Both the position numbers and the translations under genes were made by a program. From NCBI GenBank assembly GCA_021740045.1, contig JAIPAP010000034.1, positions 1 through 37,428 on the forward strand: a stretch of 37,428 nt of DNA, read 5' to 3'. This document shows, one piece after another, positions 2,078-24,976 of this stretch. Position 1 is the first letter of the stretch, and each line of letters starts with the position of its first letter. Below the pieces are notes generated by a model. That model searched no databases. It was not told where the DNA came from and saw nothing but the letters and a program-made list of their open reading frames with translations. Origin of the DNA: Bacteroidales bacterium (GTDB lineage Bacteria > Bacteroidota > Bacteroidia > Bacteroidales > JAIPAP01).

Positions 2078-2095
2078 AACTACCTAATTTCTATG

Positions 2096-2170
2096 TGGGT
2101 TGTACTGGATTCGAACCAGTGACCTCATGCCTGTCAAGCATGCGCTCTAAACCAACTGAGCTAACAACCC
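2096..2170 (-). tRNA. tRNA-Val(GAC)
   Basis: Read on the minus strand it forms a full cloverleaf: acceptor GGGTTGT/ACAACCC with discriminator A, D-arm GCTC...GAGC, anticodon arm CATGC-TTGACAG-GCATG (anticodon GAC) and T-arm with GGTTCGAATCC. CCA is not encoded. Upstream in its own direction sit five tandem copies of a defective 5' half of this same tRNA. Confidence 0.93.
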
Positions 2171-2435
2171 TTTAATGCTGCGCTCTAAACCTCCCGATAA
2201 TCATCGGGATGAGCTAACAACCCTTTAATGCTGCGCTCTAAACCTCCCGATAATCATCGTGATGAGCTAACAACCCTTTAATGCTGCGCTCTATACCTCC
2301 CGATAATCATCGGGATGAGCTAACAACCCTTTAATGCTGCGCTCTATACCTCCCGATAATCATCGGGATGAGCTAACAACCCTTTAATGCTGCACTCTAA
2401 ACCTCCCGATAGACATCGGGATGAGCTAACAACCC
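2171..2435 (-). repeat. Five tandem 53-bp defective tRNA-Val 5'-half units
   Basis: Five contiguous 53-bp units (2171-2223, 2224-2276, 2277-2329, 2330-2382, 2383-2435) differ by only a few bases. In tRNA orientation each starts with the acceptor and D-arm of the adjacent tRNA-Val (GGGTTGTTAGCTCA). The D-loop is interrupted by an 18-nt hairpin, TCCCGATGATTATCGGGA. The unit then resumes GGTTTAGAGCGCA and ends in GCATTAAA. There is no anticodon, T-arm or 3' acceptor strand, so the units cannot be functional tRNAs. The last unit keeps the stem but has a different loop; the second has one arm base changed. There are no unique spacers, so this is not CRISPR. Confidence 0.9.
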
Positions 2436-2446
2436 TTGCCGGGGCA

Positions 2447-7220: not shown

Positions 7221-8108
7221 ATGTTGGATGAACGGTTTATAGCATATCTGGTTGATGAAAAACGATACTCTACCCATACCGTTAAGGCCTATCGTAATGA
7301 TTTAGAACAACTATCCGCTTATCTTTACAACAATTACCACATTTCCAATTTACATGAAGCTAATGCATCCATGTTGCGTTCATGGCTTGTTGATATGCTG
7401 AACCATGATTATACCGCGCGAACCATCAATCGAAAACTATCTACATTAAAGACTTATTTTCAATATTTGATGCGCGAAAAAACCATTACGAGCAATCCAG
7501 TTGGTAAGCTTATTCCCCCAAAAACATCCAAACGTTTACCCGCCTTTGTTGAGAAAGACAATCTGGATAAACTATTTACTGAGATTGATTTTGGAGAGGA
7601 TTTCAAGGCCAAACGCAACCAGTTAATAATTGCTTTGTTATATGCAACCGGCATGCGTCGTGATGAATTGGTCAATTTACAACATCAGGATATCGATTTT
7701 TACAATTCTTGGATTCGTGTATTGGGAAAGCGTAATAAAGAACGTCTTATTCCTTTGGGCCCTCAGATGATAAAACTCTTGAAGACTTATTTGGAGGAAA
7801 GGGAAAAAACCCTTGGTAAGCCAGGGCAAGACAGTTGGTTATTTGTAACGGATAAGGGGAAACAAATCTATCCGCGTCTTGTTTATAGGGTAGTTAACAA
7901 TTACTTAAACCTGGTAACAACTATAGAAAAGAAAAGCCCACATGTGTTACGGCATTCATTTGCAACACATATGCTGAATAATGGAGCCGACCTGAATGCG
8001 GTCAAGGAATTGCTGGGGCATTCGAGTCTTGCAGCCACGCAAGTATATACCCACAATACCATTGAGAAGTTAAAAGCAATTTATAACCAAGCCCACCCAA
8101 AGGCTTAA
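7221..8108 (+). CDS. xerC: Tyrosine recombinase XerC/XerD family (chromosome dimer resolution)
   Basis: A 295-residue protein with an N-terminal SAM-like core-binding domain (residues 1-90) and a catalytic domain carrying the full tyrosine-recombinase set: R146 in TGMRRDEL, K170 in GKRNKER, H241 and R244 in HVLRHSF, H267 in LLGHSS and the nucleophile Y276 in VYTH. Together with its Xer partner it resolves chromosome dimers at dif. The place between rpsU and hpf is the conserved Bacteroidota location, so this is the housekeeping enzyme, not a mobile integrase. Whether it is named XerC or XerD cannot be decided from the sequence alone. The hpf start follows 16 nt after the stop. Confidence 0.93.
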   Translation: MLDERFIAYLVDEKRYSTHTVKAYRNDLEQLSAYLYNNYHISNLHEANASMLRSWLVDMLNHDYTARTINRKLSTLKTYFQYLMREKTITSNPVGKLIPPKTSKRLPAFVEKDNLDKLFTEIDFGEDFKAKRNQLIIALLYATGMRRDELVNLQHQDIDFYNSWIRVLGKRNKERLIPLGPQMIKLLKTYLEEREKTLGKPGQDSWLFVTDKGKQIYPRLVYRVVNNYLNLVTTIEKKSPHVLRHSFATHMLNNGADLNAVKELLGHSSLAATQVYTHNTIEKLKAIYNQAHPKA

Positions 8109-8641: not shown

Positions 8642-8715
8642 GCCAATGTAGCTCAGTTGGTCAGAGCAGCTGATTTGTAATCAGCCGGTCGGCGGTTCGA
8701 ATCCGTCCATTGGCT
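8642..8715 (+). tRNA. tRNA-Thr(TGT)
   Basis: Acceptor GCCAATG/CATTGGC, D-arm GCTC...GAGC, anticodon arm GCTGA-TTTGTAA-TCAGC with anticodon TGT, and T-arm with GGTTCGAATCC. CCA is not encoded. It is the first tRNA of the Thr-Tyr-Gly cluster that precedes tuf. Confidence 0.95.
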
Positions 8716-8717
8716 CG

Positions 8718-9261
8718 CGTTCTTAACATATTGTAAATTGGGGAGATTCCAGAGCGGTCAAATGGGGTCCCGACTAAATCGGGATTGGCTTTATTCCTTC
8801 GCAGGGGCTAAAGTTAGCCAGGCGGCAAGCAGGAAATTTCACCACACGTTCTTAACATATTGTAAAAAGGGGAGATTCCAGAGCGGTCAAATGGGGTCCC
8901 GACTAAATCGGGATTGGCTTTATTCCTTCGGAGGGGCTAAAGTTAGCCAGGCGGCAAGCAGGAAATTTCACCACACGTTCTTAACATATTGTAAAAATTG
9001 GGGAGATTCCAGCGCAGTCAAATGGGGTCCCGACTAAATCGGGATTGGCTTTATTCCTTCGCAGGGGCTAAAGTTAGCCAGGTGGCAAGCAGGAAATTTC
9101 ACCACACGTTCTTAACATATTGTAAAAATTGGGGAGATTCCAGAGCGGTCAAATGGGGTCCCGACTAAATCGGGATTGGCTTTATTCCTTCGCAGGGGCT
9201 AAAGTTAGCCAGGCGGCAAGCAGGAAATTTCACCACACGTTCTAAACATATTGTAAAAATT
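8718..9261 (+). repeat. Four tandem pseudo-tRNA-Tyr units with spacers
   Basis: Four 107-nt pseudo-tRNAs (8740-8846, 8869-8975, 9000-9106, 9131-9237) are separated by 22-24-nt spacers (CGTTCTTAACATATTGTAAA...) that copy the Thr-Tyr intergenic sequence. Each begins exactly like the real tRNA-Tyr (GGGGAGATTCCAGAGCGGTC through TGGGG). The anticodon arm is then replaced by the hairpin TCCCGACTAAATCGGGA, the variable arm (TTGGCTT..., CCTTCG.AGG) is kept, and the T-arm is replaced by GGCTAAAGTTAGCC. The 3' end AATTTCACC-ACA can still pair imperfectly with GGGGAGATT. Without anticodon and T-arm consensus these cannot translate. Copy 3 has changes in the D-arm and tail; copies are otherwise nearly identical. 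Confidence 0.9.
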
Positions 9262-9347
9262 GGGGAGATTCCAGAGCGGTCAAATGGGGCAGACTGTAAA
9301 TCTGTTGGCTTATGCCTTCGGAGGTTCGAATCCTCCTCTCCCCACCA
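9262..9347 (+). tRNA. tRNA-Tyr(GTA)
   Basis: A class II tRNA with a long variable arm: acceptor GGGGAGA/TCTCCCC, anticodon arm CAGA-CTGTAAA-TCTG (anticodon GTA), T-arm GGAGGTTCGAATCCTCC, discriminator A at 9344 and encoded CCA at 9345-9347. It is the only complete copy after four defective ones, and the only tRNA in the window with an encoded CCA. Confidence 0.96.
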
Positions 9348-24037: not shown

Positions 24038-24976
24038 CTACTTTCCAAGCTTCCGCATAAAAAACTGTCTCCCGTTAAATTCGGTTTGTAGCAACTTTTC
24101 TTCTTCCAATAATTTTTCAACAATTTCCCATTGCGCATTATCCTTTTGCAGGAGTTCCCTAACTGCCTCCTCGCGCATGGGATGTACGGCCGTAATGCTA
24201 AGTAAATCCTCTTCGGCATTGCCGCTTGAAGCAAAAGAGTTTCCCTCATAACCCAGTAACAGTTCAACATTATGGATCTTCTCCGAAAAAATTTGATAAG
24301 CTTTATTGATACTTGTCTCATCCGCGGGTGTTACATCTTTCCTTGCCGGAGGACGTGTAGGGATGGAAAGGTAGGCTATAGCAGGATTTATGTCGCCGGT
24401 AAATAATGCCGTTTTTTCCAGCTGATCCGGAGCATCGTTGATGCCTTTGATCAACATGGTTTCAGTGACCAGTTTTCCTTTGAATTCCTTACTGAATGAT
24501 TTTATGCCATCCAAAATACTTTCCAGGTTGAGATTTTTATGCGGGCGATCCACATGCTTCCAGCAATTTTCTTTCACTGCATCAACTTTTACCGAAACCC
24601 AATCGGCCGCTTTCAACTCATCCCTTACATCCTGACGCCAGAGAAGGGAACTGTTGGTGATCACTGCAATCCTGACCCCCAGGGACTTGAGCAATTCAAT
24701 TTCTTTACCCAGGTTAATGTCCAGCGTTGGTTCTCCATCGGGCACAAGGCTCAGGTAATCAATTTTTTCACCCTGGTTCTTGAGCTGGGCAACTTTTTGC
24801 TTGATTTCTTCCACCAGCTCAAGGGGATCATAGTGTTCCCTCCGTTCGGTTTCCATACGTATGGCTTTGCCTAGCTGGCAATATACACAGGAATAACTGC
24901 AGACTTTCGGGGGAATGTTGTTGATGCCCAGGCTTCTGCCCAGCCTTCTTGAAGGAATTGGACCAAATGCTTTCAT
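24038..24976 (-). CDS. Radical SAM protein (COG0731-like)
   Basis: A 312-residue protein. After the FGPIPSRRLGRSLGINNIP start comes the cluster motif C26-x3-C30-x2-C33 (CSYSCVYCQLG), which binds the 4Fe-4S cluster that cleaves S-adenosylmethionine. Further radical SAM parts are the VPDGEPTLD and AVITNSSLLW segments and KVDAV. This group, which includes relatives of wyosine-forming enzymes, starts with a conserved PSRRLGRSLG. The C-terminal about 80 residues resemble a winged-helix-like appendage (MREEAVRELLQKDNAQWEIV). The substrate is unknown. It begins 5 nt after the methyltransferase stop, so the two are co-expressed. Cofactor or RNA modification are both possible. Confidence 0.85.
   Translation of the reverse strand: MKAFGPIPSRRLGRSLGINNIPPKVCSYSCVYCQLGKAIRMETERREHYDPLELVEEIKQKVAQLKNQGEKIDYLSLVPDGEPTLDINLGKEIELLKSLGVRIAVITNSSLLWRQDVRDELKAADWVSVKVDAVKENCWKHVDRPHKNLNLESILDGIKSFSKEFKGKLVTETMLIKGINDAPDQLEKTALFTGDINPAIAYLSIPTRPPARKDVTPADETSINKAYQIFSEKIHNVELLLGYEGNSFASSGNAEEDLLSITAVHPMREEAVRELLQKDNAQWEIVEKLLEEEKLLQTEFNGRQFFMRKLGK

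Follow-up and report, generated by a model that had tools for sequence, protein, structure and literature searches.

The window, meaning the whole 37,428-nt stretch of DNA analysed here, carries two tandem arrays of altered tRNA copies, each upstream of the intact gene that it resembles. The gap between tRNA-Thr and tRNA-Tyr is occupied by four pseudo-tRNA-Tyr copies of 107 nt each, arranged in units of 129-131 bp and all located 5′ of the real gene. The second, shorter-period array is built on tRNA-Val and lies on the other strand. The features are as follows.

2095..2170, minus strand: intact tRNA-Val(GAC) (ARAGORN)
2171..2437, minus strand: sister array of five 53-bp copies of the 5′ part of tRNA-Val, upstream of tRNA-Val (TRF, sequence)
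8642..8716, plus strand: tRNA-Thr(TGT), which opens the Thr-Tyr-Gly-tuf cluster (ARAGORN; Rfam, 73.2 bits)
8718..8739, plus strand: spacer CGTTCTTAACATATTGTAAATT, recurring ahead of each copy and ahead of the real tRNA-Tyr (the TRF repeat unit begins here)
8740..8846, plus strand: pseudo-tRNA-Tyr copy 1, with an anticodon-arm hairpin at 8768-8784 and a T-arm hairpin at 8806-8819 (sequence, TRF)
8869..8975, plus strand: pseudo-tRNA-Tyr copy 2, anticodon-arm hairpin at 8897-8913 (sequence, TRF)
9000..9106, plus strand: pseudo-tRNA-Tyr copy 3, anticodon-arm hairpin at 9028-9044 (sequence, TRF)
9131..9237, plus strand: pseudo-tRNA-Tyr copy 4, anticodon-arm hairpin at 9159-9175 (sequence, TRF, fold)
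9262..9347, plus strand: intact tRNA-Tyr(GTA) (ARAGORN; genome-wide Rfam tRNA search)

The two pseudo-tRNA arrays of the window

A first-pass annotation had claimed four near-identical pseudo-tRNA-Tyr copies ahead of tRNA-Tyr, and both the coordinates and the TRF result (period 131, 4.4 copies, 96% matches, score 1081, far above chance) confirm this. Its description of the arms is accurate on comparison with the real gene. The copies retain GGGGAGATTCCAGAGCGGTCAAATGGGG and keep the 5′ acceptor strand and the D arm; the real anticodon arm CAGACTGTAAATCTG is exactly swapped for TCCCGACTAAATCGGGA, and a stretch containing GGCTAAAGTTAGCC stands in place of the T arm. The ends of the copies can still pair, as had also been proposed, the fold of the unit containing the anticodon-arm hairpin and a closing 5′/3′ stem (z = -1.9, with 9 of 200 shuffles equally good). 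Neither ARAGORN nor Rfam scores the copies, which lack the anticodon arm and T-loop of a tRNA, as tRNA genes, and at the gathering score no Rfam family other than the tRNAs themselves matches. The gene at 9262..9347 is the sole intact tRNA-Tyr among the loci examined with ARAGORN and the genome-wide Rfam search.

A leader motif, GTTCTTAACATATTG, precedes each Tyr unit (8718-8739 onward), and similar GTTCTTTAA motifs occur in other genomes. By eye, the leader motif looks like an antitermination boxA. A tRNA-targeted integrase was considered as the agent behind the Tyr array and rejected: the sole recombinase-like ORF seen nearby is XerC-like (7221-8108) and lies outside any unit. Standing beside an hpf-like ORF, it is judged by eye to be a housekeeping gene.

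The Val array was missed by the first-pass annotation, as was a solo pseudo-tRNA-Tyr on another contig of the same genome. In the Val copies, the GTT of the D-loop is replaced by TCCCGATGATTATCGGGA or a variant, giving hairpins at 2192-2209, 2245-2262 (one stem mismatch), 2298-2315, 2351-2368 and 2404-2421. In the solo pseudo-tRNA-Tyr (contig C71, positions 24436-24520 of G000:C71, minus strand; 1481-1565 of locus L003), the anticodon arm alone is replaced and the T arm is intact. The flanks of this solo copy are promoter-like and terminator-like.

Partial tRNA copies in the source genome and across Bacteroidota

Further pseudo-tRNAs in the source genome include a pseudo-Met (C61) and pseudo-Asn copies (C107 and C152). 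Same-strand partial copies lie within 1.5 kb of 16 of its 35 tRNA genes, as against 2 for the opposite strand and 20 of 210 in a foreign-locus control. Nearby same-strand copies are interrupted by an insert at 13 of the 35 genes, and 20 of the 21 inserts are hairpins, of types that include TCCCGA.., CCTGCCTGCCGGCAGGCAGG, TCTCGCCTGAGGCGAGA and a two-hairpin form of 63-89 nt. Two-hairpin inserts (CCCCGAAAAACC.. followed by ..CCTCGAAAT..ATTTCGGGA; 63-94 nt over all loci) constitute a third, larger insert class; this class sits in the Leu D-loop and in Gly and His T-loops, at source-genome loci L105, L074, L054 and L060 and also at L277 and L316. Upstream of tRNA-Arg(TCT) (L055), four 13-nt matches to the T arm are evenly spaced at about 80 bp and are probably another tandem array.

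Small ORFs of the GIY-YIG nuclease family accompany some of these copies. In the source genome such ORFs occur at tRNA-Arg(CCT) and tRNA-Asn, with hairpin-bearing copies on both sides; of the 16 genes that have partial copies nearby, only 2 have the ORF alongside. The window has none, and none was found at the Tyr and Val loci of the source genome. A truncated GIY-YIG gene next to a TCCCGATTTCAATCGGGA hairpin (G000:C11:7725-7938, L248) has no nearby tRNA.

Among 393 genomes of the source's order, 7 have the pattern of a D-loop joined to a TCCCGA hairpin (reversed-pattern control, 0); a species-level genome collection contains it in at least 116 stretches, essentially all of them Bacteroidota. 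A real same-strand tRNA of one of many isotypes lies less than 600 bp downstream in 107 of the 116 evaluable matches listed, from which 14 further matches that run off a contig end were excluded. A GIY-YIG ORF is present at about 33 of these 116 hairpin-selected loci. The D-loop pattern gave 0 matches in IMG/VR, which rules against phage-borne arrays. In several genera of Flavobacteriaceae, a pseudo-tRNA-Asn precedes the real tRNA-Asn by about 350 bp, and a GIY-YIG ORF of about 90 aa lies between them; one locus (L234) has two such pseudo-Asn/GIY-YIG units in tandem. Homologous arrays of the Tyr type likewise exist, so that their absence from related genomes, which would have counted against the first-pass annotation, is not what is seen: in a genome of another family, tRNA-Thr is followed by tRNA-Tyr with a pseudo-Tyr on either side of it, and the hairpin of these copies occupies the same site but has a different loop. 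The earlier argument that a clean exchange of arm for hairpin speaks against decay is supported, since partial tRNA copies next to tRNA genes show such an exchange as a rule throughout Bacteroidota.

An assembly or binning artefact could be suspected, since the assembly is fragmented (161 contigs) and many of the TCCCGA hairpins are close to the end of a contig. However, the copies in the window are not identical to one another, and the same anatomy recurs in many independent assemblies and in cultured isolates (among the matches listed, Algoriphagus, Flavobacterium, Leeuwenhoekiella, Gelidibacter and Belliella, with others). We regard an artefact as extremely unlikely.

Small GIY-YIG genes and the anatomy of the units

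In an unbiased sample, 90 small GIY-YIG loci were chosen by Pfam score, irrespective of any tRNA, from 119 genomes of the source's order. A tRNA gene lies within 400 bp of 35 of the 90, on the same strand in 34 of those 35; our own estimate from tRNA density puts the chance expectation at about 1%. Partial tRNA copies are present in 34 loci, and the ORF is flanked there by putative homology arms that resemble its presumed target. In upstream copies the interruption usually falls in the D arm or the anticodon arm; in downstream copies it is usually found in the anticodon arm or the T arm. The positions are isotype-specific: the 21-22 junction in Arg, the 55-56 junction in Arg, His and Met, positions 25-36 in Asn and positions 28-46 in Val. 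Inserts fold better than their shuffles in 39 of 44 cases (p <= 0.05; median z -4.0), and almost all are hairpins in which pairing is kept while the stem sequence varies (TCCCGA.., TCCCGC.., CCTGCC.., TCCGTC.. and two-hairpin forms). The hairpin type tracks the element rather than the host, because the CCTGCC hairpin (CCTGCCTGCCGGCAGGCAGG) recurs at the Arg 21-22 junction across families and the hairpins of a single genome (G066) differ from one tRNA to another.

These last two observations also bear on an origin in which tRNA fragments were simply duplicated in tandem and a RAYT or some other hairpin mover then inserted REP-like palindromes into them, with GIY-YIG genes as hitchhikers. The source genome has 60 TCCCGA hairpins, as against 2 for the reversed pattern, many of them inside other dispersed repeats, and it does contain Y1 transposases. 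Such an origin is nevertheless hard to reconcile with one hairpin at one Arg position across families and with hairpins that differ by tRNA element within a genome. Nor was a CCCGA..TCGGG hairpin found in any of the four Y1 loci of the source genome, where this origin would place the palindrome on the flanks of the transposase gene, and the RAYT/REP route was rejected on this ground. We consider the explanation as a whole very improbable. About 49 of the TCCCGA..TCGGGA hairpins are not part of a tRNA copy and frequently form the tip of a larger palindrome in another dispersed repeat; the hairpin may therefore have a separate history, a point that counts against the mobile-element interpretation preferred below. 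Some of these hairpins adjoin contig ends.

A complete counterpart of the window arrays is found at L336, where the order is a promoter-like site, five tandem 5′ pseudo-Val copies, the intact tRNA-Val, a terminator, and then three repeats of a GIY-YIG gene, a 3′ pseudo-Val and a terminator. L225 and L144 have D-loop 5′ Val arrays like that of the window and a GIY-YIG gene downstream. The full element is thus composed of n 5′ tRNA copies with hairpin, the intact tRNA, and m units of a small GIY-YIG gene followed by a 3′ tRNA copy with hairpin; in some lineages the ORF is placed between the 5′ copy and the tRNA. On the basis of these three layouts, the two arrays of the window look like the left-hand half of an element, devoid of the ORF. 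Two genomes that are 96% identical (G066 and G400) differ by one unit of GIY-YIG gene plus 3′ copy at tRNA-His, and therefore units are gained or lost whole. The G400 site retains a 5′ remnant of the GIY-YIG ORF; what the pair documents is a unit gained or lost, and the site is not cleanly empty.

The same layouts can be read in terms of RNA. The pseudo-copies could be functional leader RNAs under selection for RNA structure, serving for example as attenuators, to guide processing or to stabilise the mRNA of the nuclease ORF, with the nuclease secondary. The 5′ copies are presumably co-transcribed with the tRNA, being on the same strand and, by eye, having a promoter-like TAnnTTTG upstream of several arrays; the Tyr unit of the window retains its closing stem, and pairing is maintained while stem sequences differ. 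Against this, some copies lie downstream of a terminator, the stem is broken in one Val copy of the window, a closing stem is not evident by eye in every array, and no Rfam family matches. We think this explanation improbable. The first-pass suggestion of structured RNAs processed with the tRNAs may still hold: location in a presumably transcribed leader and the fold agree with it, but a closing stem is not evident in every array. The accompanying suggestion of decoys for tRNA enzymes found no support here.

The GIY-YIG domain (Pfam PF01541) was recognised in all six proteins tested, and the active-site residues Y, Y-x-G, R, H and E are conserved at 97-100% in 68 GIY-YIG proteins. The dN/dS is about 0.19, with many pairs saturated, and the nuclease is under purifying selection. 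Searches of NCBIfam and of PDB sequences with the nuclease returned no match. In a tree of 132 rows, which is based on a short alignment and has many open forks, tRNA isotype changes 22 times, as against 41 when shuffled (minimum 35), and the state of being linked or unlinked to a tRNA changes 18 times, as against 44. Nuclease phylogeny, as judged from this tree, follows tRNA isotype, as target-site-specific lineages would. A separate, well-supported GIY-YIG clade of 33 rows from the same order (L249-L269 and others) has no tRNA-linked member and serves as an internal control.

In the proteins tested, Pfam detects no separate DNA-binding domain, only GIY-YIG and an overlapping weak T5orf172. 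A different substrate could be considered in this light: a structure-specific GIY-YIG enzyme, like Slx1, might cut the palindromes or cruciforms of the pseudo-copies rather than the intact tRNA, the ends then recombining with intact genes. This proposal deserves to be taken seriously because a bare catalytic domain without an evident DNA-binding module and the survival of the real tRNA are both accounted for, and it agrees with the conservation of structure over sequence in inserts that differ and yet are almost all hairpins. Isotype-specific insert sites and an enzyme tree ordered by isotype suggest, however, that tRNA sequence is recognised, and we judge cleavage of the hairpins to be unlikely. 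The corollary that the pseudo-copies are safe cut sites which spare the essential tRNA seems to us doubtful to the same degree.

A proposed mobile element and its known analogues

Of the three origins suggested by the first-pass annotation, the best fit is an element that makes copies of tRNA genes, and an associated small GIY-YIG nuclease gene was found. We think it fairly probable that the arrays, the Tyr stack included, are tandemly amplified copies, lacking the ORF, of a mobile GIY-YIG element that lives as a parasite of tRNA genes in Bacteroidota; the copies would have been left behind by such an element or mobilised in trans by one. Each GIY-YIG lineage would recognise one arm of one tRNA gene and break the DNA there, the presumed targets being the anticodon arm of Val or Tyr, the D-loop of Arg (21-22) and the T-loop of Arg, His or Met (55-56). 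The partial tRNA copies would act as homology arms through which recombinational repair copies the unit in, and unequal repair could lengthen or shorten the tandem stack. The hairpin would overwrite the target site and mark its position; the flanking copies would therefore be neither target nor tRNA, and the real gene would stay whole. What was observed directly is the anatomy, the link to tRNA genes with its strand bias, the hairpins at isotype-specific positions, the isotype-ordered nuclease tree, the conserved active site with purifying selection, and the difference of one unit between close relatives; cleavage, homing and the role of the hairpin are inferred. Counting against this explanation are the lack of a GIY-YIG ORF in the window and at the Tyr and Val loci of the source genome, the bareness of the GIY-YIG domain, and the real tRNA itself, which keeps the presumed target, so that self-cutting must somehow be avoided.

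A precedent for such a mechanism exists in SegB, a free-standing GIY-YIG nuclease of phages T4 and T6. Through homologous recombination, SegB causes a tRNA-Tyr segment to be amplified in tandem (PMC13096335). SegB is the nearest known analogue, and the two systems share a free-standing GIY-YIG nuclease beside tRNA genes of many isotypes. SegB, however, is a phage protein that amplifies intact tRNA genes, whereas the Bacteroidota units are chromosomal, encode a minimal domain of about 90 aa and consist of partial copies with a hairpin arm. Homing endonuclease genes, whether in mobile introns or free-standing, resemble the Bacteroidota element in having target-like flanks around the nuclease ORF, site-specific lineages and, going by G066 and G400, gain or loss of units; the element, by contrast, has no intron or intein, and its host gene is flanked by altered copies instead of being interrupted. 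Replacement of an arm by a hairpin is not known from homing endonuclease genes.

Other repeats offer partial parallels. REP/BIME palindromes with RAYT (Y1) transposases are likewise short and numerous, but the Bacteroidota arrays have no Y1 gene, and their hairpins occupy fixed tRNA positions and track the nuclease lineage. The 178-bp repeats of E. coli tyrT (rtT RNA) are tandem repeats by a tRNA-Tyr gene that contain tRNA sequence; they lie downstream of the gene, comprise 3′-end fragments, and are not known to have a hairpin graft or a nuclease, and the window copies have no Rfam match. Integrative elements that target tRNA genes also repeat a tRNA fragment at the element edge, whereas the Bacteroidota units are 50-600 bp long, show no integrase, and have copies on both sides in the form of hairpin-marked fragments.

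No paper that connects GIY-YIG genes with tRNA genes in Bacteroidota was found in the open-access literature, although one may exist elsewhere. Mobile GIY-YIG genes located at tRNAs are a kind already known from phages; within the reach of these searches, the hairpin-grafted copies of bacterial chromosomes represent a new form of this kind. They belong to a widespread and apparently undescribed family of selfish-looking DNA units. A broader proposal, which we offer as possible rather than probable, is that they represent undescribed, phylum-wide minimal mobile elements, in which tRNA-hairpin chimeras are paired with a single-domain GIY-YIG nuclease, one tRNA arm per lineage, and the hairpin-tagged pseudo-tRNA, as a DNA cruciform or as RNA, might supply the specificity that the bare domain lacks.

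Annotation and assembly at such tRNA loci may be unreliable, and this should serve as a warning. On the interpretation favoured here, a puzzling class of pseudo-tRNAs would be explained, and many small GIY-YIG genes of Bacteroidota would gain a target and a context. How a bare nuclease of about 90 aa finds one tRNA arm, how essential genes tolerate such elements, and why a hairpin is needed are thereby opened to test. Such an element would exploit essential genes as a parasite and yet leave them intact.
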